Assembly: GCA_947446025.1 (NCBI GenBank)
Contig: CANFEY010000024.1
Location: 1-61,614 of the forward strand
Source: Bryobacterales bacterium
GTDB lineage: Bacteria; Acidobacteriota; Terriglobia; Bryobacterales; Bryobacteraceae
DNA: 61,614 bases
Direction: 5' to 3'
A program made the translations under genes and the position numbers. Under the pieces are notes generated by a model, which was given only the letters and a program-made list of their open reading frames with translations, did no database searches and was not told where the DNA came from. Shown here piece by piece: positions 46,746-57,666 of the stretch (positions are counted from its first letter, which is position 1; the number at the start of each line of letters is the position of its first letter).

Positions 46746-47279
46746 TTATTGCTCCGGCAAGAGCTTGCGAATCTGGTGCGACAACTTGTTGTAAGGGGCC
46801 TCCTCGAAGGGCCCGGCGTGACGCCACACCACGTTGCCCTGCTGATCGAGCAATACAAGATACGCGAATTTCTCGTCCTTGACTCCGAGGCGCTGCTTCC
46901 AAGGTCCCGTGCCGCCATAAACAGTGATCACATTCTCGTGGTCCGATTTCGGAGTCCCGCGACGCATTCCGCCGTCGATGAACCATTTCGCCATGCGGGC
47001 CATCCCGCCGATCATGGGGATTTCGTAGAACGTTACCTGGGGAGTCTTGTCGAAGTCCCCGCGAAAACGTTTGGTCCAGGCTTCCACGGCGAATCGAGAA
47101 TCGTAGCTAAAACCGAAAAGCAGCAGGGCGACGCGCCCGGAAGCCGCGCCGGGCAGGGGCGCATCCCGGCCAGTGAGAAACTCGCCCTTCAATTCAGGCA
47201 GGCGTTCCCCTACTGTCATCACTCCATTTGCGGCAAAAGTCATCATAGAAGTTGCTAGCGCGAGCGAGAGTAGTTTCAT
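46746..47279 (-). CDS. ATP10-like thioredoxin-fold protein
   Basis: 177 residues; short signal peptide (MKLLSLALATSMMTFAANG). The pattern VALLLFGFSYDSRFAVEAW, then VTFYEIPMIGGMARMAKWFIDGGMR and LLDQQGNVVWRHAGPF, resembles the ATP10/peroxiredoxin-like group. No active-site Cys is seen in the usual place, so a chaperone role is more likely than redox. It overlaps the CFA-synthase-like gene by 4 nt. Confidence 0.65.
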   Translation of the reverse strand: MKLLSLALATSMMTFAANGVMTVGERLPELKGEFLTGRDAPLPGAASGRVALLLFGFSYDSRFAVEAWTKRFRGDFDKTPQVTFYEIPMIGGMARMAKWFIDGGMRRGTPKSDHENVITVYGGTGPWKQRLGVKDEKFAYLVLLDQQGNVVWRHAGPFEEAPYNKLSHQIRKLLPEQ

Positions 47280-48544
47280 GCGTGTGCCACCTTTTGGTGT
47301 TCTTGTTTTTCGGCAGTATCCGTCCAAGGCTCGCTGAAGAGCGGTTTGGGATTTGCGTTCTTAGTCAGCATCAATTGGACGTCGCTGATGCGCCGCTCCC
47401 GGAACGCGCCCTCGCAATAGGCCAGATAGTAGTCCCACATGCGGCAGAAGCGGTCGTCGAAACCCAGCTCGCGGACTTCCCGCATGGAGTCATGGAACCG
47501 GGCTCGCCATGCGGCTAACGTGTATGCGTAGTGCAATCCAATATCCTCGACGTCATATAGAGCGAGATGCGTCGATCGGACGAGCGACTTAATAATTTCT
47601 CCAATGGAAGCTAACTGGGCGCCCGGAAAGATGCGCCGCTGGATCCAATCGCTCTGCTTGCGGTAGGTGTCAAAACGATGTTCATTCATAGTGATCGCCT
47701 GCATTACCATGGACCCATCCGCCGTCAGCAGCCGGTCGCAGGCTGAGAAGAACGCGTCGTAGTATTCGAGGCCAACGGCTTCGAACATCTCGATGCTAAC
47801 CAGCTTGTTGAACGATCCGCGCAGATTGCGGTAGTCCTCCATCAGCAGAGTGATCCGCTGGCCAGCGTCTCCGGCGTTGGCGAATAACTGTTTTGCTTCG
47901 TCGTGCTGCTCGCGGCTGATCGTGGTCGTCGTGACGTTGCAGCCGTAGTTACGGGAGGCGTGCAGGGCGAACGCTCCCCAGCCGGTTCCGATCTCGAGGA
48001 CGCGGTCTCCCGGACAGAGACGCAGCTTGCGGCAGATGCGGTCGAGCTTCTCCACCTGCGCGTCTTCCAGCGAATCGCTGGCATTTCTGTAAACCGCACT
48101 CGAATAGACCATATTCCGGTCAAGGAACAAGCGGAAGAAATCATTGCTCAGGTCGTAGTGTGCCTGGATATTGCGCCTACTGCCCCTGAAGGTATTGCGG
48201 TTCAACCGGTATCGCATACGGTGGTAAAGGCGGTTGGCCATGGAAAGAAGCGGGTTCCCGCCTTCGAGTTCGGAGAGATTTCGTGCAGCCAGACGTACCA
48301 CGGCGACAAGGTCCGGAGAGGACCAGTCGCCATCCACGTACGAATCACCGGCCGCATCGTCACCGCCCCAGAGGACTCGCGAAAAGAAGCGCTCGTTGTG
48401 AATCGCAATCGAGGCCCGTAAGCCCGTATCCGCCTCCCCAAAGAGATAGGACCGTTCCGGGCAGATCACTTCCAGCGCACCATGGCGCAGATTTTCCAGC
48501 ATACGGAAGACGCTCTTCCGCGCAAAACTCATTTTCATGATCAT
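47276..48544 (-). CDS. Cyclopropane-fatty-acid-synthase-like methyltransferase
   Basis: 422 residues. The SAM motif VLEIGTGWGAFALHASRNYG is near residue 195, with the CFA-specific YDLSNDFFRLFLD before it and SIEMFEAVG after it. It transfers a methyl or methylene group to unsaturated phospholipid acyl chains. Related enzymes of photo-oxidative regulons (UfaM/CfaA types) build cyclopropane or furan fatty acids. Overlaps DUF1365 (ATGA). Confidence 0.88.
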   Translation of the reverse strand: MIMKMSFARKSVFRMLENLRHGALEVICPERSYLFGEADTGLRASIAIHNERFFSRVLWGGDDAAGDSYVDGDWSSPDLVAVVRLAARNLSELEGGNPLLSMANRLYHRMRYRLNRNTFRGSRRNIQAHYDLSNDFFRLFLDRNMVYSSAVYRNASDSLEDAQVEKLDRICRKLRLCPGDRVLEIGTGWGAFALHASRNYGCNVTTTTISREQHDEAKQLFANAGDAGQRITLLMEDYRNLRGSFNKLVSIEMFEAVGLEYYDAFFSACDRLLTADGSMVMQAITMNEHRFDTYRKQSDWIQRRIFPGAQLASIGEIIKSLVRSTHLALYDVEDIGLHYAYTLAAWRARFHDSMREVRELGFDDRFCRMWDYYLAYCEGAFRERRISDVQLMLTKNANPKPLFSEPWTDTAEKQEHQKVAHA

Positions 48545-49329
48545 TTGGCTACCTTCTGAATGGGCGGCCGTAATTTAGCCGGGTGCGTGAAGACGGGGAC
48601 TCGTTTCAAAAACAAACGCAGTGCCTGCCAATGGATGGTGCCGATCACTTTGGCGGTCATCCACGGATGACGAAGCAGCACCCTGCCGAGGCTCCGTGAG
48701 TTCCAGGGCTGCCAATCGAGCGCAAGGGTAGCATCAAAAAAGGGCTGCGCCTGTGGGCTTTGCTCGATTGTGTTCATATGAGCCACCAGCCGGTCCCCGG
48801 GTTCCGTCAGGACGAACTCGTAGTCCAAGTCCATCCCCATGAACGGAGACACGTGCATCGTCTTGGGGCAGCGGTAGCGTAGTGCGTTTACCGAGGGACT
48901 CTGGTTTTGGGGCGATAGCCAGTAATTGCGGCTCTCGCCAAAGGTGCTGTTCACTTCGGCGAGTACCGTATCCAAGTGACCACTGCGGTCATAGCAGAAG
49001 AAGTAGGAAATGGGATTGAAGCAGTAACCCAGGTAACGGAGATGCGTCAGCAGGAAGATTGGTCCATCGGCCAAAGGAATGCCGTGGGCACGAGCATCTT
49101 GCTGCACGCGCTCGCGCAAGGACCGCCGGGCATCTCCAAAGTGGTCTCGTTCCTCGAAGCTCGCCCAGTTGAAGCGGTTGTAGCTGGTCCACGGCGATTG
49201 CCCCATCAATTCGGGAATGCGGTCAATATCCAGCCAGGCCATGAAGAGCGAGTAAGTGAACTCGTGGTGGACCGGTTGAAACCGCCGGTGACGTAGGGTG
49301 CCGGTATAGAGCCCGGGTGCGGGAATCAT
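48541..49329 (-). CDS. DUF1365 family protein
   Basis: 262 residues from ATG 49329. Characteristic LYTGTLRHRRFQPVHHEFTY at the N-terminus, HLRYLGYCFNPISYFFCYD and NTFGESRNYWL in the middle. DUF1365 genes travel with CFA-like synthases and amine-oxidase-like flavoproteins in light- and singlet-oxygen-induced operons of many bacteria. Function unknown but probably in lipid modification. ATGA overlaps on both sides. Confidence 0.9.
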   Translation of the reverse strand: MIPAPGLYTGTLRHRRFQPVHHEFTYSLFMAWLDIDRIPELMGQSPWTSYNRFNWASFEERDHFGDARRSLRERVQQDARAHGIPLADGPIFLLTHLRYLGYCFNPISYFFCYDRSGHLDTVLAEVNSTFGESRNYWLSPQNQSPSVNALRYRCPKTMHVSPFMGMDLDYEFVLTEPGDRLVAHMNTIEQSPQAQPFFDATLALDWQPWNSRSLGRVLLRHPWMTAKVIGTIHWQALRLFLKRVPVFTHPAKLRPPIQKVAK

Positions 49330-50573
49330 GAGCAACGCACCCCCAAGGTCTCCGCTACACGCATGCCACTATGCACTCCATCTTCGTGGAAGCCGTAGAA
49401 CCAGTATGCTCCGCAGAAATGTGTTCGGTTCTTTCCACTGATTTCCGGCCAGCGTTCTTGGCTGCGAATGGCCGCCTGCGTGTACAGCGGGTGTTCGTAG
49501 ACCATCCGCCGCAACACCCGCCCCGGATCGATCGAGCCGTTCGCGTTCAAGGTGACGCAATAGTCCTCGGCCGTGTTGAGGGATTGCAACCGGTTCATGT
49601 GATAGGTGACAGTCACTTTGCCGGAATCACCCAGCAGGTAATTCCACGAGGCCCTTGCGGCTGGTCGCTTCGGTAACAGCGTCGCGTCAGTGTGCAAACA
49701 AGTCTCATTGCGGGTCGTAGTGAACGAGCCCAGTACATCGCGCTCTGGAGTTGTCGGATGTGCGAGCAGCGGCAAGATCTGATCTCCGTGGCACGCGAAC
49801 ACGACTTCATCGAATTGCTGGGCGGGCCTTTCCCGAAACTTCAGTGTCACACCCGAATCGCAACGCTCGACTGCGGAGATCGTCGTGTCCTGAGTAATCC
49901 GTTCCCGGAACGGTGCGGTTAGTCGAGCGAAGTAAGAATGACTGCCGCCGCGAATCACTTTCCACTGGGGATGGGTGTTGATTCCCAACATACCGTGATT
50001 CTGCATAAAGCGAACGAGCGTCGTTACGGGAAACTTGGGCACCACGTCAGGAGCCATGGACCACACAGCGCCCGCCATCGGGATCAGGTAGCGTTCCACG
50101 AATACCGGTGCGTACCGGCCCGCCTCAAGAAACGCTGCCAGGGTTACGCCATCTGCGTCCGGATCGTTCAGCACCTTGGGTGCCGAGTGATTGAAGCGCA
50201 GGATCTCACGCAAGAGAGTGTAGTGGCGCGGTGACAGGTAGTTGCTCTTCTGGGCAAAGAACCCGGCGAGGCCATGGCTGGAATACTCAAACGCTCCTCC
50301 GCGCTCGGTCACCGCGAAGGACATGTCGCTCGGCTGCGTCGCAACTCCCAGCTCCTCCATTAGCCGGCAGAAGTTTGGATAGGTCCGGTCGTTATGAACG
50401 ATAAAACCTGTGTCGACGGGAATCGGCCCGCCTTCAGAATCCACCATCACCGTATGCGTGTGGCCGCCAAGCCGGTTGTCTTTTTCAAAGACGTGGACTT
50501 CGTGTTTGCGGCTCAGGTAGTAAGCCGCGGAGAGCCCGGAGATCCCGGAACCGATTATGGCGATCCTCTTCAT
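49326..50573 (-). CDS. NAD/FAD amine-oxidase-like flavoprotein
   Basis: 415 residues. The FAD-binding RIAIIGSGISGLSAAYYLSR is at the N-terminus, followed by EKDNRLGGHTHT. The conserved VFACHGDQILPLL, GDSGKVTVTYHMNRLQ and a C-terminal FCGAYWFYGFHEDGVHSG are typical of the flavoprotein that accompanies DUF1365 and CFA synthases. It probably oxidises or desaturates a membrane lipid. Overlaps the desaturase stop and the DUF1365 start. Confidence 0.88.
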   Translation of the reverse strand: MKRIAIIGSGISGLSAAYYLSRKHEVHVFEKDNRLGGHTHTVMVDSEGGPIPVDTGFIVHNDRTYPNFCRLMEELGVATQPSDMSFAVTERGGAFEYSSHGLAGFFAQKSNYLSPRHYTLLREILRFNHSAPKVLNDPDADGVTLAAFLEAGRYAPVFVERYLIPMAGAVWSMAPDVVPKFPVTTLVRFMQNHGMLGINTHPQWKVIRGGSHSYFARLTAPFRERITQDTTISAVERCDSGVTLKFRERPAQQFDEVVFACHGDQILPLLAHPTTPERDVLGSFTTTRNETCLHTDATLLPKRPAARASWNYLLGDSGKVTVTYHMNRLQSLNTAEDYCVTLNANGSIDPGRVLRRMVYEHPLYTQAAIRSQERWPEISGKNRTHFCGAYWFYGFHEDGVHSGMRVAETLGVRCS

Positions 50574-51382
50574 GTGACCGCCTTGCGGAACGGCCGCAAG
50601 TCTTGCGCGATGCCCATCCAGCTCAGGACCTTCAGTGCCAAGTAGGTGATATCCAACTCCCACCAGCGCTCTCCCTGGCGGCAACTTCCAGGTGAGTGGT
50701 GATGATTATTGTGCCAGCCCTCGCCCAACGTGATGAGGGCTAGGCACCAGTTGTTGCGGCTTTCATCGGGAGTATCGAAGCGGCGCGTCCCCCACAGATG
50801 AGCCAACGAATTAATTGCGAAAGTGCAGTGGTACAGCAGGACGGTGGAAACGACGAAGCCCCACAAGAATGCGGGCCATCCGCCGAGGAGCGCCACGGTG
50901 GTGCCGAAGACAACAGTCGGAACCCAGTGATGCCGGTCCAGCCAACGAATTTCCGGGAACTTCAAGAACTCGGCCACCGCGCGCGTATCGTAATCGTCGA
51001 AATCGTTGGAGAGAATCCAGCCCACATGTGCCCACCAGAATCCGCGGCGATTGGGCGAATGAACATCGTGCTCCCGGTCTGATTCCCGATGATGCAGGCG
51101 ATGATGCGCCGCCCACCACAAAACGCCCTTTTGCGCCGAGCTCTGAGCCAAGAAGGCCATGGCGAATTGGGCCACTCGACCAAGCTTGTAGCTCCTGTGC
51201 CCGAAGTAGCGATGGTAGCCTGCCGTCACGCCGAACATGCGGATTGCGTAAGTTGCAGCCAGCCAGACCAGTAGGGACGCAGTCGGTGGAGTCCACCAAG
51301 CGCCCACTACGCCCGCGTGCAGCAACACAAAGAAAAGAACCGCTCCGAACTGGTACCGGACTCTCGATGGAAAGGCGTTCAC
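50570..51382 (-). CDS. Membrane acyl-CoA (fatty acid) desaturase
   Basis: 270 residues with four membrane helices and the three histidine boxes HRYFGHR, HRLHHR and HNNHHH that bind the di-iron centre. It introduces a double bond (delta-9 type) in acyl chains, which would supply substrate for the CFA-like methyltransferases. It is the first gene of the eight-gene light operon. The GTG start coincides with the predicted transcription start, so the mRNA may be leaderless. Confidence 0.9.
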   Translation of the reverse strand: MNAFPSRVRYQFGAVLFFVLLHAGVVGAWWTPPTASLLVWLAATYAIRMFGVTAGYHRYFGHRSYKLGRVAQFAMAFLAQSSAQKGVLWWAAHHRLHHRESDREHDVHSPNRRGFWWAHVGWILSNDFDDYDTRAVAEFLKFPEIRWLDRHHWVPTVVFGTTVALLGGWPAFLWGFVVSTVLLYHCTFAINSLAHLWGTRRFDTPDESRNNWCLALITLGEGWHNNHHHSPGSCRQGERWWELDITYLALKVLSWMGIAQDLRPFRKAVT

Positions 51383-51388
51383 AACTCA

Positions 51389-51467
51389 TTCTTAGCGGAG
51401 TTCCGCTCCGTTGTCAATGGGCTGTCCATGACAATGTCTTGACGTAGCTGACGGGCTCGGTTATGCT
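51389..51467. promoter_or_regulatory. Divergent promoters with CarH-like operator
   Basis: Minus strand: TTGACA (51412-51417), 17-bp spacer, TAAGAA (51389-51394), with the predicted start at the desaturase GTG (51382). Plus strand: TTGACG (51439-51444), 17-bp spacer, TATGCT (51462-51467), with the start 1-2 nt before the carH ATG. Between and over the -35 boxes, the minus strand carries ATTGACAA (51411-51418) and ATGGACAG (51422-51429), both matching the CarH half-site nTnnACAn at 11-bp spacing. A weaker third copy is at 51434-51441. The first overlaps the desaturase -35. Confidence 0.7.
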
Positions 51468-51475
51468 CAAACAGG

Positions 51476-52372
51476 ATGCAAACCAGTTATCCGATTCGCG
51501 CCGTAGCGAAAATCACCGGTCTCAGCCTGGACACGCTTCGCGCGTGGGAGCGGCGCTACCAAGCTGTCGTGCCGGAACGCTCTGATCGCGGCCGCCAGTA
51601 CGGCACGGCGCACATAGAGCGTCTGCTGATACTGAATCAGTTGGTGCAGAAAGGGCACGCCATTGGCGGAATCGCGTCGCTCAAGGATCAGGAATTGAAG
51701 AAGCTCCTCGCGCCGCCGCTCAATCGGACTCCTCGCGAACCTGAGCGGTCTGCCGACATCCTGGGTCCCGTTTTGGCCGCGATTGAGAGATTTGATTCTA
51801 GAGCTGCTGGTGATGAACTGTGTCGGCTGGCGGCCGCTCTTAGCCCCCGAGACTTGCTCTACCGTGTGGTTCTACCGCTCATGTATGAGGTAGGAACTCG
51901 CTGGCACGACGGCCAACTCGCTATCGCCCAGGAACATCTGGTCTCGCAACTGCTTCGCAATCTTCTGGGCAGCATGGTGGCGTTGTTCCGAACGTCCAAC
52001 CCCACGATGAAGATGGTTCTTGCAACACCCGCTGGCGAATCGCACGAGTTTGGCATTCTCGCTTCCGCAATGCTTGCATCCATGGCGGGCATCGAGGCGA
52101 TCTCGCTTGGAACGGATCTTCCCGCTCGCGAAATTGGCGCAGCCGCGCAACGCCTTTCCGCGACGGTGGTCTTGCTTGCGGTCACGGTAACCAACAAAAC
52201 CACGACGAAGGAGCTACGGGCGATTGCCGCCGCCATACCTGAGTCCACTGAGTTGTGGATCGGTGGAGCGGCCAGCGCCGAGCTCAATCTGTCCAAGCTG
52301 GGGAGAAAGACCCTTATATTGAAGGACCTTCCGGCGCTTGAAGACCAGTGCCGGAATTGGAGAAACCGATGA
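51476..52372 (+). CDS. carH: CarH/LitR-type B12-dependent photoreceptor repressor
   Basis: 298 residues. N-terminal MerR winged helix (YPIRAVAKITGLSLDTLRAW). The middle helical bundle has Trp143 and Glu153-His154 in the W-x9-EH motif (RWHDGQLAIAQEHL), which caps adenosylcobalamin. A Rossmann B12-binding domain has His190 in GESHEFG, the lower axial ligand in CarH. Spacing matches Thermus CarH (W131, E141-H142, H177). In the dark it should bind DNA as a tetramer; light breaks the Co-C bond and releases it. ATG follows the promoter directly. Confidence 0.9.
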   Translation: MQTSYPIRAVAKITGLSLDTLRAWERRYQAVVPERSDRGRQYGTAHIERLLILNQLVQKGHAIGGIASLKDQELKKLLAPPLNRTPREPERSADILGPVLAAIERFDSRAAGDELCRLAAALSPRDLLYRVVLPLMYEVGTRWHDGQLAIAQEHLVSQLLRNLLGSMVALFRTSNPTMKMVLATPAGESHEFGILASAMLASMAGIEAISLGTDLPAREIGAAAQRLSATVVLLAVTVTNKTTTKELRAIAAAIPESTELWIGGAASAELNLSKLGRKTLILKDLPALEDQCRNWRNR

Positions 52373-52695
52373 AGACGGCGCTTAAGATTCTGTTCGCTGG
52401 CATATTCCTGTGGATGACCGTGCTCACCATCCGCACCAGCCTTGCCGTCAGCCTTTGGGATGCCTGGGATTCGTATGCCGCCAACCCATGGGCGGTGGCA
52501 ACGCTCTATGACGCCTACTTTGGGTTCATCACTTTTTTCATTTGGGTAGCGTACAAAGAAAGCTCTCTCTGGTCCCGCATCGTGTGGCTGGTTCTGATCC
52601 TAGGTCTGGGGAACATCGCCATGTCGCTGTATGTCCTGATCCAGCTCTTCCGCTTGAAACCCCACGAACCTGCGGAGGCATTGCTGCGGAGATGA
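52369..52695 (+). CDS. DUF1475-like small membrane protein
   Basis: 108 residues with three membrane helices: KILFAGIFLWMTVLTIRTSL, YDAYFGFITFFIWVAYKES and IVWLVLILGLGNIAMSLYVL. The NIAMSLYVL and FFIWVAYKE patterns recall DUF1475 proteins. Function unknown. The ATG overlaps the carH stop, so it is made with the photoreceptor. Confidence 0.7.
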   Translation: MKTALKILFAGIFLWMTVLTIRTSLAVSLWDAWDSYAANPWAVATLYDAYFGFITFFIWVAYKESSLWSRIVWLVLILGLGNIAMSLYVLIQLFRLKPHEPAEALLRR

Positions 52696-53483
52696 ATGAA
52701 CAACTCACGATGGTGCTGATCGGCGGGGCAAGCGTGGCTGCGCTGATGCTGCTGCTCTGGTTGATCCATTTAGGAACAGGAAACGCCGCCATCGTGGATG
52801 CGGGCTGGGCGGGAGGCCTCGCTATGCTGGCAATTCTTTTCGCTGTTTTGGGTGAAGGCTACTGGCTTCGGTCGGTGATGATCGCTGGCATGGCAGGCAT
52901 CTGGGGATTTCGCCTTTCCATTTACCTGCTTGCGACCCGTATCATCGGGCATCCGGAAGAGGGCCGCTATCAAGAACTCCGACGCCAGTGGAAAACCAAT
53001 ATCTCTTTCAAGTTTCTGCTGTTCTTTGAATTCCAGGCGCTCTTGTGCGTTGTGCTCGCGGCCCCATTTCTCTTGGCGGTGCGCAACGCGACTCCCTGGG
53101 TCACACCGCTTGAGTGGATGGCTGTCGCCCTATGGACGCTGGCCATGGCGGGCGAAGCTGCTGCGGATGCGCAACTCAACAAGTTCAAGTCTGACCCGGC
53201 CAACAAGGGCCGCACTTGCCAAGTAGGACTGTGGCGCTACTCGCGCCATCCGAATTATTTCTTTGAATGGCTGATCTGGGTAGCCTTTGCGTTATTCGCC
53301 CTCGGATCCCCTGGCGGATACTGGGGACTGATCTCCCCTCTGCTCATCTTGTACTTCGTGCTTCGCGTGACCGGAATTCCAGCGACTGAGGCCCAAGCCC
53401 TTCGAACGCGGGGCGAAGAGTACCGCAGGTATCAAGAAACCACCAGCGCATTCGTGCCCTGGCCACCGAAGGAGGCGCGTTAG
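52692..53483 (+). CDS. DUF1295 membrane protein (steroid-reductase-like)
   Basis: 263 residues, about seven membrane helices, with the conserved C-terminal [18 protein letters not shown] and [16 protein letters not shown] of the DUF1295/3-oxo-5-alpha-steroid 4-dehydrogenase-like group. It probably binds NADPH and reduces a lipid double bond. DUF1295 is a standard member of light-induced lipid operons. Overlaps the previous gene (ATGA). Confidence 0.87.
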
Positions 53484-53490
53484 GACAGCG

Positions 53491-54567
53491 ATGCGGGCCA
53501 TTCCAGCCGAACAGAATATCGAGCAACCCAAGGCAGCTTGGTACGAACCCCTTGTCGAGCGCGATATGGTTCCGGACGCAGTCTTGCGGGCTGGGATACG
53601 CCGCCTGATTTCGCAGCGTCTCCGAGACGAGAACAAGGGCGGCCTAGAACTCCAGCAGGCTCACCTGACGAGCTACATCGAGCAGCTTAAGGCGAGTCCC
53701 ATCGCCATCCATGCGCGCGCGGCGAATGAGCAGCACTACGAAGTTCCCGCCGAATTCTTCGCCTCCGTGCTGGGGATTTACCGAAAATACAGTTGCTGCT
53801 ACTGGCAAGCGGGCGACACGCTCGACCAAGCCGAGCAACGCATGCTGGACCTCACCTCCGAGCGCGCGAGAATCGAGGACGGACATTCCATCTTGGATCT
53901 CGGCTGCGGTTGGGGAGCTTTCTCGCTCTACGCCGCCGCGCGTTTCCCGAGCAGCGCGGTGGTCGGCGTATCGAATTCAAACTCGCAACGCCAATATATA
54001 GAACAGCAAGCCCGCAATCGCGGCCTCACGAACCTCCGTATCGTCACGGCGAACATCAATGACTTCGATGCTGGCCACCAGTTTGACCGCATCGTGTCAG
54101 TCGAAATGATGGAGCACGTGCGGAACTATCAACTCCTGCTCCAAAGGATTGCGTCGTGGATGCGGCCACATGGATTGTTTTTTGTCCACATCTTCACTCA
54201 CTACCGTTTCGCCTATCCCTTTGACGTCCGCGATTCGAGTGATTGGATGGCCCAGCATTTCTTTACCGGCGGCCAGATGCCCAGCGACAATCTCCTGCTC
54301 TATTTTCAAGACGACGTAAAGATCCGCAATCATTGGGCGGTGAATGGCCAACATTACCAAAAGACCGCTGAAGCGTGGCTCGCCAACATGGATGAACACC
54401 GCCATGAACTACTGAGCCTCTTCGCGTCCGTGTATGGCCAGGCTGCTGCGCTGAAATGGTTGGTTCGCTGGCGCATCTTCTTTATGGCCTGCGCGGAACT
54501 GTGGGGTTATCGAAACGGCACGGAATGGATCGTTTCGCACTACTTGTTCGAGAGCGCAAGAGCATGA
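53491..54567 (+). CDS. Second CFA-synthase-like methyltransferase
   Basis: 358 residues with the SAM motif [20 protein letters not shown] near residue 133 and [15 protein letters not shown]. It is more distant from CFA synthase than the 47276 gene and lacks its N-terminal extension. The family sits in photo-oxidative-stress regulons with DUF1295 and may methylate unsaturated or furan-type fatty acids. Overlaps the SRPBCC gene by 4 nt. Confidence 0.83.
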
Positions 54568-55016
54568 AGTTTCATACCTTGCGGCGAGAACAGTGGATCC
54601 CGCGCCCTGTCCACGAAGTCTTCCCATTTTTCGCCGACGCCCACAACTTGGAGGCGATCACTCCGCCGTGGCTGGACTTTCGAATACTCTCCACTATGGG
54701 CAAGACAGTTTCGGAGGGGACGGAGATTCGTTACCGCCTGCGACTACACGGCCTCCCGATTCATTGGCGAACGGAGATCCGCCGCTGGGACGAGCCCAAC
54801 CGTTTCGTCGATGTACAGAGATCGGGGCCGTACAAACTGTGGCACCACACGCATCTCTTTGAGGCACACGGCGATCAGACCAAAATGATCGATGTGGTGC
54901 GCTATATCCTGCCGTTCGGGATACTGGGGAGAATCGTTCACGCGATCAAGGTCCAGGATGACGTGCGGAGGATCTTTGATTACCGGTCCCAGCGCATCGC
55001 CGAATTGTTTGAGTAG
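54564..55016 (+). CDS. SRPBCC (START-like) ligand-binding protein
   Basis: 150 residues; [20 protein letters not shown] then [19 protein letters not shown] is the classic opening of polyketide-cyclase/START-like proteins, ending with a long helix ([21 protein letters not shown]). It should hold a hydrophobic ligand in a helix-grip pocket. Last gene of the carH transcript. Confidence 0.83.
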
Positions 55017-55067: not shown

Positions 55068-55535
55068 CTATTTCCCTGAGGGAAGAATCACTGTATCGAT
55101 CACGTGGATCACACCGTTGTCGGTGCTAATGTCCGTTTTGACCACTTGCGCGTTGTCCACCATGACCTTGCCGCCCATGGCCTGGATCTTGACGGTGCCG
55201 CCCTGCACGGTTTTTGCGCCCTTCATCTTGACGACGCTTTCTGCCATGACCTTTCCGGAGACGACGTGATACAGGAGGATGTCTTTCAATTTGGCCGGGT
55301 CTTTCAGCAGAGCATCGACTGTCCCGGCAGGCAGCTTGGCGAAAGCTTCGTCGGTCGGAGCGAACACCGTGAAGGGTCCGGCGCTCTTCAATGTATCCAC
55401 CAAGCCCGCGGCCTTGACGGCTGCGACGAGCGTGGTGAAGTTTCCGGCTGCAACCGCAGTGTCGACGATGTCGGCAGCAGAGGCGTGCATGCTTGCTCCA
55501 GCGAGCAGGGCTAGTACGGGTAAGAAATGTTTCAT
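55068..55535 (-). CDS. Secreted fasciclin-domain protein
   Basis: 155 residues; signal peptide ([20 protein letters not shown]) and one fasciclin (FAS1) domain with [25 protein letters not shown] and the C-terminal [16 protein letters not shown]1 proteins mediate adhesion or matrix contacts. AAGGAG upstream supports the start. It is often induced with photo-oxidative genes in other bacteria, which may explain its place inside this cluster on its own transcript. Confidence 0.9.
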
Positions 55536-55725
55536 TTTAATTCTCCTTGGTAATGGTTCTGACCGTTACGCAAGTGTGATGAACCCGTTTATCCTGTAGC
55601 CTCAATTTCTTTTTCGTTAGCAGGATCGCAAGGCCCGTGAAAACCAATGCGCCGATTGAACGACCGAGCGCATCAACAGTAAGGGAGTGAATATCACTGT
55701 GAGCCCGCTAGCGACCGTAAGAATC

Positions 55726-56292
55726 ATGTCTCCGGAACGTGTGGGCATCGGCTCGCACCTAAGGGATGTATTGGAACTCTTGGGCGAAGACCCAGCCCGC
55801 GAGGGTTTGGCGAGAACCCCGGAACGTTGGGAAAAGGCCATGGGCTTCCTCACCAGTGGCTCTCAGACCCGCGTGGAGGATTTGGTCAACGGGGCGCTCT
55901 TCGCGGTGAAGTTCGATGAGATGGTGCTGGTGAAAGACATTGAATTCTTTAGCATGTGCGAACACCATCTGCTTCCGTTTTTCGGCAAGATGCATATCGC
56001 TTACCTCCCGACGGACAGAGTGATCGGACTGAGTAAGATTCCTCGAATCGTGAATATGTTCGCGAGGCGTTTGCAGGTTCAGGAGCGATTGACCCAGGAA
56101 GTCGCGGAAGGGGTTGCAGGTGCCGTGGACCCTCGGGGCGTTGCAGTGATGTGCGAGGCAAGCCACTTCTGCATGATGATGCGCGGAGTTGAGAAGCAAC
56201 ATTCTTCCACGGTGACCAGCGCGATGTTGGGCGAATTCCGCGATAATAAGGCCACCCGAGACGAATTTCTCGCCCTTGTCAAACGCAGGTAG
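55726..56292 (+). CDS. folE: GTP cyclohydrolase I (FolE)
   Basis: 188 residues from ATG 55726; GTG starts at 55687 and 55699 are also possible. Zinc ligands are intact: Cys and His in [15 protein letters not shown] and the second Cys in SHFCMMMRG. It converts GTP to dihydroneopterin triphosphate, the first step to folates and pterins. A second FolE copy in light clusters is thought to supply the folate antenna of photolyase, although the photolyase here is broken. 12 nt upstream of the SDR gene. Confidence 0.93.
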
Positions 56293-56304
56293 AGAGAGAA
56301 GGCA

Positions 56305-57666
56305 ATGGAACCACTTATTCTAGTCACAGGCGCCACGGGCTACATCGGCGGACAACTGTTCAAGGCTCTACGTTCCAAAGGCTACGCTATCCGGTGCCTG
56401 GTGCGTCGGCCGCAGGACCTGATCGCTGAGGAACCTTCCGGGGTTGAGGTCGTAGTCGGTGACGTCCTAAAGATCGAGTCCGTGCAAGCAGCAATGGCCG
56501 GAGTGGACACAGCCTACTATTTAGTTCACTCGATGGCGTCGACCCAGTCCTTCGAGGTGCAGGACCGTGCCGCCGCACAGAACTTCGCCAACGCAGCCCA
56601 CCAGGCGGGCATTCGACGTATCATTTATCTCGGTGGGCTCGGGCAGGGCGGGGAGAAGCTCTCCGCACACTTGCGCAGCCGCCACGAAGTGGGTGAGATT
56701 CTCAGATCGACGGGTGTTCCGGTCGTCGAGTTCCGCGCGTCGGTGGTAATCGGACCGGGCAGTCTCTCGTTTGAAATGATCCGGGCTCTCGTCGAGCGCC
56801 TTCCGGTCATGATCGCTCCGCGCTGGGTCTCCGTGGCGGCGCAGCCAATCGCCATCGCCGATCTGACTTCCTACCTGCTAGCAGCCTTGGACTTGTCATT
56901 TAAAGGAAGCCGGATCTTCGAAATCGGAGGCTCGGATCAAGTGTCGTACGGAGGCCTCATGGAGGAGTACGCTCGGCAACGCGGGCTCCGGCGTTTCGTG
57001 ATCTCGGTTCCGTTCCTAACACCACGGTTGTCGAGTCTTTGGCTCGGATTGGTAACGCCGCTGTACGTTCGGGTTGGTCGCAAATTGGTCGACAGCATCT
57101 GCCATGCCACGATTGTTGAGGATCCGTCCGCTCTAACGGAATTCAAGATTCGACCCTGCGGGTTTCGCGAGGCCATTGCTGCAGCCCTAAACGCGGAGGG
57201 GCAACATCTGATGACGGATTCGCGGACTGTCCACACTAGCGCTTCTCCTACGGAAGCTTTCGCGGCGATCCGGCGAATTGGCGGCACTACGGGATGGTAC
57301 TACGCGAACTGGTTGTGGCAACTCCGCGGTTGGCTGGACAGCCTATTGGGCGGGGTCGGATTGAGGCGCGGTCGCCGAGATCCCGACTCGCTTCGCGTGG
57401 GCGACCCTGTGGACTTCTGGCGCGTGGAGTTGTTCGATCCCGGCCGCCTGCTACGGCTGGTCGCGGAGATGAAGCTCCCAGGCCGGGCCTGGCTAGAGTT
57501 CGAAGTCATGGGCGATTCCACCGGTTCTCTCATCCGGCAAACAGCTACTTTCGACCCGAAAGGCGTGCTCGGACGCGCCTACTGGTATTCCGTCTTTCCC
57601 CTGCACGAATTTGTTTTCGGCGGAATGCTCCGGGGCATTGCCGAAAGAGGCCGGATGGACCGCTGA
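56305..57666 (+). CDS. NAD(P)-binding SDR fused to DUF2867
   Basis: 453 residues. An extended SDR/NmrA-like Rossmann domain (VTGATGYIGGQLFKALRSKG, then AYYLVHSM) occupies the first 290; the rest is DUF2867, ending RGIAERGRMDR. These fusions occur with DUF1295, CFA and FolE genes in LitR/CarH-type clusters. It probably acts on a membrane lipid or quinone-like molecule. GAGAGAAGG precedes the ATG. Confidence 0.85.
   Translation: MEPLILVTGATGYIGGQLFKALRSKGYAIRCLVRRPQDLIAEEPSGVEVVVGDVLKIESVQAAMAGVDTAYYLVHSMASTQSFEVQDRAAAQNFANAAHQAGIRRIIYLGGLGQGGEKLSAHLRSRHEVGEILRSTGVPVVEFRASVVIGPGSLSFEMIRALVERLPVMIAPRWVSVAAQPIAIADLTSYLLAALDLSFKGSRIFEIGGSDQVSYGGLMEEYARQRGLRRFVISVPFLTPRLSSLWLGLVTPLYVRVGRKLVDSICHATIVEDPSALTEFKIRPCGFREAIAAALNAEGQHLMTDSRTVHTSASPTEAFAAIRRIGGTTGWYYANWLWQLRGWLDSLLGGVGLRRGRRDPDSLRVGDPVDFWRVELFDPGRLLRLVAEMKLPGRAWLEFEVMGDSTGSLIRQTATFDPKGVLGRAYWYSVFPLHEFVFGGMLRGIAERGRMDR

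Follow-up and report, generated by a model that had tools for sequence, protein, structure and literature searches.

Can a single DNA site of a vitamin B12-dependent light sensor govern two genes that are read away from each other? This question is raised by a 93-bp gap (51383-51475) in a 61.6-kb stretch of Bryobacterales bacterium DNA (61,614 nt; contig CANFEY010000024.1 of assembly GCA_947446025.1), which we analysed as a whole and call the window. The gap separates a fatty acid desaturase gene on the minus strand (50570..51382, GTG start at 51382) from a gene on the plus strand for a carH-like MerR-B12 regulator of 298 aa (51476..52372, ATG start at 51476). The desaturase is the first gene of a divergent operon that continues on the minus strand with genes for an FAD/NAD oxidoreductase (49326..50573), a DUF1365 protein (48541..49335) and a cyclopropane-fatty-acid-synthase-type (CFA-type) methyltransferase (47276..48544). 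On the plus strand, genes 3′ of carH for DUF1475, DUF1295, a second CFA-type methyltransferase and an SRPBCC protein (52369..55016) are probably cotranscribed with it.

Our analysis identified the regulator as a divergent CarH-like protein. Its residues 5-278 align to the Thermus CarH structures 3whp and 5c8d (E 1e-24), and a MerR HTH is followed by a two-part B12-binding domain, which is the arrangement that defines class I LitR/CarH proteins. Two Pfam domains, PF13411 (MerR_1) and PF02607 (B12-binding_2), score over their cut-offs and PF02310 (B12-binding) slightly under (29.5 vs 32.1 bits). The best family match is the NCBIfam CarH equivalog NF052513, but the score of 106.5 bits is far below the cut-off (400), so that the protein is termed CarH-like here and is not an equivalog by this model. 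The signature described for light-responsive cobalamin domains (GxxW, EH, GxxH, GxxxP; PMC11796333) is complete in the window protein as GTRW, QEH, GESH and GTDLP, and a cobalamin adenosyltransferase gene is present in its own genome. The CarH identity proposed in a first-pass annotation of this DNA is therefore upheld in the sense of a CarH-like protein with residues that have been tied to adenosylcobalamin light sensing. Among 19 homologues whose genes bear the operator described below, GxxW-x9-EH is kept in 18 and GxxHxxG in 16. The nearest relative (G002) departs from the signature (GKRF, SESH, GPDLT) yet retains the operator, and a few others likewise keep it without parts of the signature. 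Such cases would suit the same repressor acting on the same site without B12 in some members of the clade, in the manner of CarA, and being relieved by another signal; in Myxococcus, B12-independent CarA and CarH share an operator (PMC8156234). Given the whole signature in the window protein and the adenosyltransferase in its genome, we consider this explanation improbable and continue with an adenosylcobalamin-dependent regulator.

Within the gap, two minus-strand half-sites of the form nTnnACAn had been pointed out, and they are indeed present 11 bp apart (start-to-start) as ATTGACAA at 51411-51418 and ATGGACAG at 51422-51429. When both strands of the whole window were searched, TnnACA pairs at 11 bp were found only twice, the second one near 47684 inside the coding frame of the CFA synthase. 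What the first-pass annotation did not contain is a plus-strand half, composed of an incomplete inner pseudo-site, ATGACA (51428..51433), which has its central base in common with the inner minus-strand site, TGGACA (51423..51428), and an outer half-site, TTGACG (51439..51444), which is one base off TnnACA and covers the carH -35. The minus-strand pair is thus the better half of a putative inverted CarH-type operator of 35 bp (51411..51445), a reading based on sequence and on conservation in relatives. With extents set by the published nnnnTnnACAn repeat, its tandem sites span 51411-51421 and 51422-51432 on the minus strand and its inverted site spans 51435-51445 on the plus strand. The two inner sites overlap by 9 of 11 bp and therefore at most three non-overlapping domains fit, which we infer to be placed on these three sites in a two-plus-one occupancy.

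TnnACA half-sites in an 11-bp register that overlap a promoter element are what characterises CarH operators and are found here; one-strand arrays of three or four tandem repeats, as in the Thermus/Bacillus type, are not. An exact triple of TnnACA in 11-bp register occurs nowhere in the window's own genome, the window having two, on the minus strand, and degenerate third repeats are permitted in published CarH operators (PMC9304148). The dyad is weak in the window's own copy, with 9/16 pairs matching, and is exceeded elsewhere in the window, where 12 pairs match. We rejected significance of the dyad from the window alone, and the symmetry therefore rests on the comparison with relatives.

This comparison comprised 151 genomes, a phylum sample of 396 genomes and one named MAG, Acidobacteria sp. 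RBC033, which are not independent of one another. The carH upstream regions of relatives share TTGTCAAnnnTTTGTCCATGACAAAnnnTTGACA, ungapped in the close ones, where 51411-51445 as a whole takes the form of a single ungapped inverted operator. Conservation in nine close loci, expressed as mean majority frequency, amounts to 0.84 across the 35 columns of the operator vs 0.48 and 0.46 in the flanks. Among 186 window stretches of 330 bp, the operator-bearing one differs from the consensus pattern at 2 positions and all others at 8 or more. In the whole genome of the window, the pattern (≤3 mismatches) was found at one place only, the operator, and the reversed control nowhere; regarding a wider regulon, no second place was found in this genome with the stringent pattern. 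In the genus, 6/23 genomes contained the pattern, exactly the 6 with a strong CarH homologue (E 5e-108 or better), and the reversed control was found in none of the 23. In the phylum sample the pattern was present in 20/396 genomes, namely in 16/64 with CarH (E ≤ 1e-20) vs 4/332 without (Fisher p 1e-10). Each of these four (G519, G348, G514, G236) holds a single match in one direction with 3 mismatches, and the reversed control matched 2/396 genomes (G162, G198). CarH gene number is two each in G516 and G357 and usually one in the others. On a 7.2-kb contig of G516 (C217) the operator precedes the lipid operon and no carH was detected; G343:C9 resembles this arrangement but sits at a contig end.

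The 11-bp register was also counted in a wider set. In the regions preceding 58 CarH homologues, a set that includes 3 near-duplicates, the Thermus control and 2 Bacteroidota loci, same-strand TnnACA pairs cluster at two spacings, 11 bp (49 pairs) and 22 bp (12 pairs), all remaining spacings between 6 and 33 bp having 0-2; shuffles that preserve base content only gave a mean of 0.4 and a maximum of 3 pairs at 11 bp. The half-site observation is more than chance. Inverted offsets were counted in 52 loci, from which the near-duplicates, Thermus and Bacteroidota loci had been dropped, with shuffles of the same kind. Offsets of 16 and 27 bp were found in 17 and 15 of these loci and the next highest in 6. 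Because 19 of the 52 had been selected for matching the pattern (≤3 mismatches), the 33 others are given separately: in these, offset 16 occurs in 4 and offset 27 in 3, which does not stand out, as 0, -9 and 24 also reach 4. A fixed inverted phase outside the pattern-bearing clade thus finds no support in these 33 loci.

Inside the clade the operator has a polarity. From 26 loci supplied, we counted the 16 in which a desaturase or oxidoreductase start lies within 90 bp. Loss of the half-sites in related genomes had been named beforehand as the outcome that would count against the proposal; both lipid-strand half-sites, the outer TTGACA (51412..51417, minus) and the inner one, are complete as TnnACA in 16/16. 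The opposite inner site is complete in none of the 16, and the opposite outer site in 12, the window not being among them. The central base, which was left free in the search pattern to which the outer sites belonged, is T on the lipid strand in all 16 loci; seen from the carH side, 17 of 19 operators have an A there and the other 2 (L074, L078) a T. Intact lipid-strand half-sites next to a never complete opposite inner site are also what one would expect if CarH bound the lipid-strand tandem pair only, as a short tandem operator, with the inverted half being merely the carH -35 and carH being repressed sterically. However, the ACA of the opposite inner site and the TTGAC of the opposite outer one are conserved as much as the remainder, which for the inner site is not accounted for by promoter function alone, and we regard this alternative as rather unlikely compared with one inverted operator. 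A different layout was observed in two further loci (L091 and L095, from G466 and G531), in which two or three tandem half-sites on one strand upstream of carH stand opposite a tandem pair on the other strand about 50 bp away, as if there were a separate operator for each divergent promoter.

Both ends of the operator coincide with promoter elements. A consensus promoter scan of 51250-51650 revealed two promoter-like sites and no other (shuffle average 0.1). On the plus strand it recovered the carH promoter TTGACG-17-TATGCT facing away from the desaturase, as annotated before, with the -10 at 51462..51467, 8 nt before the ATG. On the minus strand the TTGACA -35 of the desaturase promoter was found again, while spacer and -10 were returned as TTGACA-18-AAGAAT, shifted by one base from the annotated TTGACA-17-TAAGAA; the -10 lies at 51388..51394 in either version and the desaturase GTG follows 5-6 nt past it. 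Each outer half-site thus coincides with the -35 of one divergent promoter. The overlap over the desaturase -35, which had already been described, is conserved. As the inverted half covers the carH -35, repression of carH by its own product, previously put forward as a possibility, becomes very likely. The coincidence with two -35 elements also raises the question whether the likeness to an operator might reflect two back-to-back sigma-70 promoters only, or whether some other regulator might use the site, CarH binding here being predicted. The inner half-sites are conserved though they are not promoter elements. Another regulator is disfavoured, since operator presence follows CarH across genomes, and the register agrees with that reported for CarH. 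We therefore judge this explanation very improbable and retain CarH as the candidate regulator.

A -10-like box 6-9 nt before the start, with no room for a leader, is taken to indicate a leaderless transcript, and the distances in front of both genes correspond to this. The spacing is fitting for two leaderless or near-leaderless mRNAs with predicted transcript starts. Across relatives this part of the first-pass annotation applies to a majority of loci: the carH start lies 6-9 nt past the -10 in 10/17 loci with carH adjoining the operator and not in 7, and the divergent gene start lies 5-11 nt past the -10 in 12/16 and not in 4, with the top hexamer at a spacing of 16-18 bp taken as the -10, several of these being poor, and carH starts set in frame with the window protein. 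Leaderless genes have been described as having a TA-like signal some 12 bp ahead of the start, and were predicted to average 13.3% in three Acidobacteria genomes (PMC3160421), so the leaderless kind as such is already known there. In two loci, L103 (G516:C276) and L111 (G252:C2), an ATG about 8 nt past the carH -10 is out of frame with carH and begins a very short frame that perhaps encodes a leaderless upstream peptide, and carH itself starts 18-28 nt past the -10. In two other loci (L112, L113) carH is separated from the operator by further genes, which in L113 are an SDR-like frame and one resembling a small membrane protein, so that carH may come later in the transcript there.

The divergent operon gives an indication of what might be regulated. 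The Rhodobacter pathway to a methylated furan fatty acid uses UfaM (a SAM methylase), UfaD (with an NAD-FAD domain) and UfaO (DUF1365) (PMC7380195). The window's methyltransferase is UfaM-like by type, its oxidoreductase UfaD-like by domain type and its DUF1365 domain that of UfaO, a likeness at the level of protein and domain type. By this analogy, we infer that the operon serves synthesis of a furan or methyl-branched fatty acid. The former label, desaturase operon, is correct in that a desaturase heads it, but it looks more like a furan-fatty-acid operon. In 22 neighbourhoods (the window and 21 loci), the gene adjoining the operator is a desaturase in 7 and an oxidoreductase in 9, and in 6 there is no window-like lipid gene beside it. 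Elsewhere in the window, a fasciclin gene (55068-55535) is found about 3.6 kb from operator and carH; genes 72-76% identical to it adjoin operator and carH in L110 (G132) and L119 (G379). The carH operon is followed at 55687-57666 by genes for GTP cyclohydrolase I (folE) and an SDR-like protein, and folE also figures among the genes that light induces in Pseudomonas (PMC9758184). On another contig, two adjacent genes of the squalene/phytoene-synthase family (L122 and L123; G000:C37:12962-14577) possibly serve hopanoids. Carotenoid control was considered and rejected: these synthase-family genes are on another contig, pattern matches are confined to the window and nothing points there.

Taken together, we think it fairly probable that dark CarH with adenosylcobalamin represses both divergent promoters from one inverted operator and that light relieves this repression. 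In the dark, CarH with adenosylcobalamin would form an oligomer, by analogy a tetramer, with two DNA-binding domains on the lipid-strand tandem half-sites and a third on the carH-strand inverted half-site. The bound domains would cover the -35s of both promoters and exclude RNA polymerase from each. Light would break the Co-C bond and the oligomer would fall apart, whereupon two (near-)leaderless transcripts would start, leftward for the desaturase and the ufaD-, ufaO- and ufaM-like genes and rightward for carH and the downstream lipid genes. The likely output would be membrane lipids altered to counter photo-oxidation, and carH would repress itself. The more specific proposal, that a single dark oligomer on a two-plus-one operator locks two leaderless divergent promoters and that a B12 photoreceptor directly controls furan-fatty-acid synthesis, is put forward tentatively and is less likely than not. 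The locus points to a B12 light sensor on a membrane-lipid operon, and not on carotenoids, in Acidobacteria, where lipid genes under predicted dark repression may protect against light damage. It would represent a conserved CarH operator design beyond the tandem-repeat models, and with two promoters and two start codons within about 95 bp it is attractive as a compact two-way green-light switch.

Literature matches listed for these topics were judged by title and start of abstract, with most subscription journals outside the scope; among them we found neither an inverted CarH operator nor B12-CarH control of ufa genes. Published CarH operators are built from 11-bp repeats in tandem, of which there are three or four, or a smaller number accompanied by degenerate copies (PMC9304148). 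The Thermus thermophilus locus on pTT27 (L100), which served as control, is similar in its homologous MerR-B12 protein, its TnnACA sites in 11-bp register, a -35 inside a repeat, a divergent gene beside carH and a carH -10 (TACCCT) 6 nt before the ATG, close to the short spacing in the window. The Thermus likeness claimed initially extends to the half-site type but not to the layout: in Thermus three tandem repeats are all on the carH strand, no pair or inverted repeat was found on the other strand, and the partner operon encodes phytoene synthase and photolyase instead of lipid genes. Myxobacterial CarH operators also have 11-bp repeats including degenerate ones, the divergent crtI-carH of Sorangium indicates that one site may control two divergent promoters, and inverted repeats were noted at the Myxococcus promoter. 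There, inverted repeats were first proposed for CarA and later set aside for direct repeats; unlike in the window, the sites were footprinted as direct repeats with inverted repeats judged not to be the recognised element, and the targets are carotenoid genes (PMC9304148). Rhodobacter ufaM-ufaD-ufaO encodes the same types of protein, a SAM methylase, a desaturase with NAD/FAD domain and a DUF1365 protein. In contrast to the window, where the operon lies at a CarH-type operator, furan fatty acid accumulates in Rhodobacter on loss of chrR, and the first gene of the operon in the window clade is that of a membrane desaturase (PMC7380195). The class II LitR proteins PplR and PmlR2 of Pseudomonas are also LitR/CarH-family repressors, with ufaM and folE among the light-inducible genes; they differ in being without a full B12 domain and in binding TGTACA-N12-TGTACA, and in P. 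mendocina the light signal comes from a LOV protein (PMC9758184).
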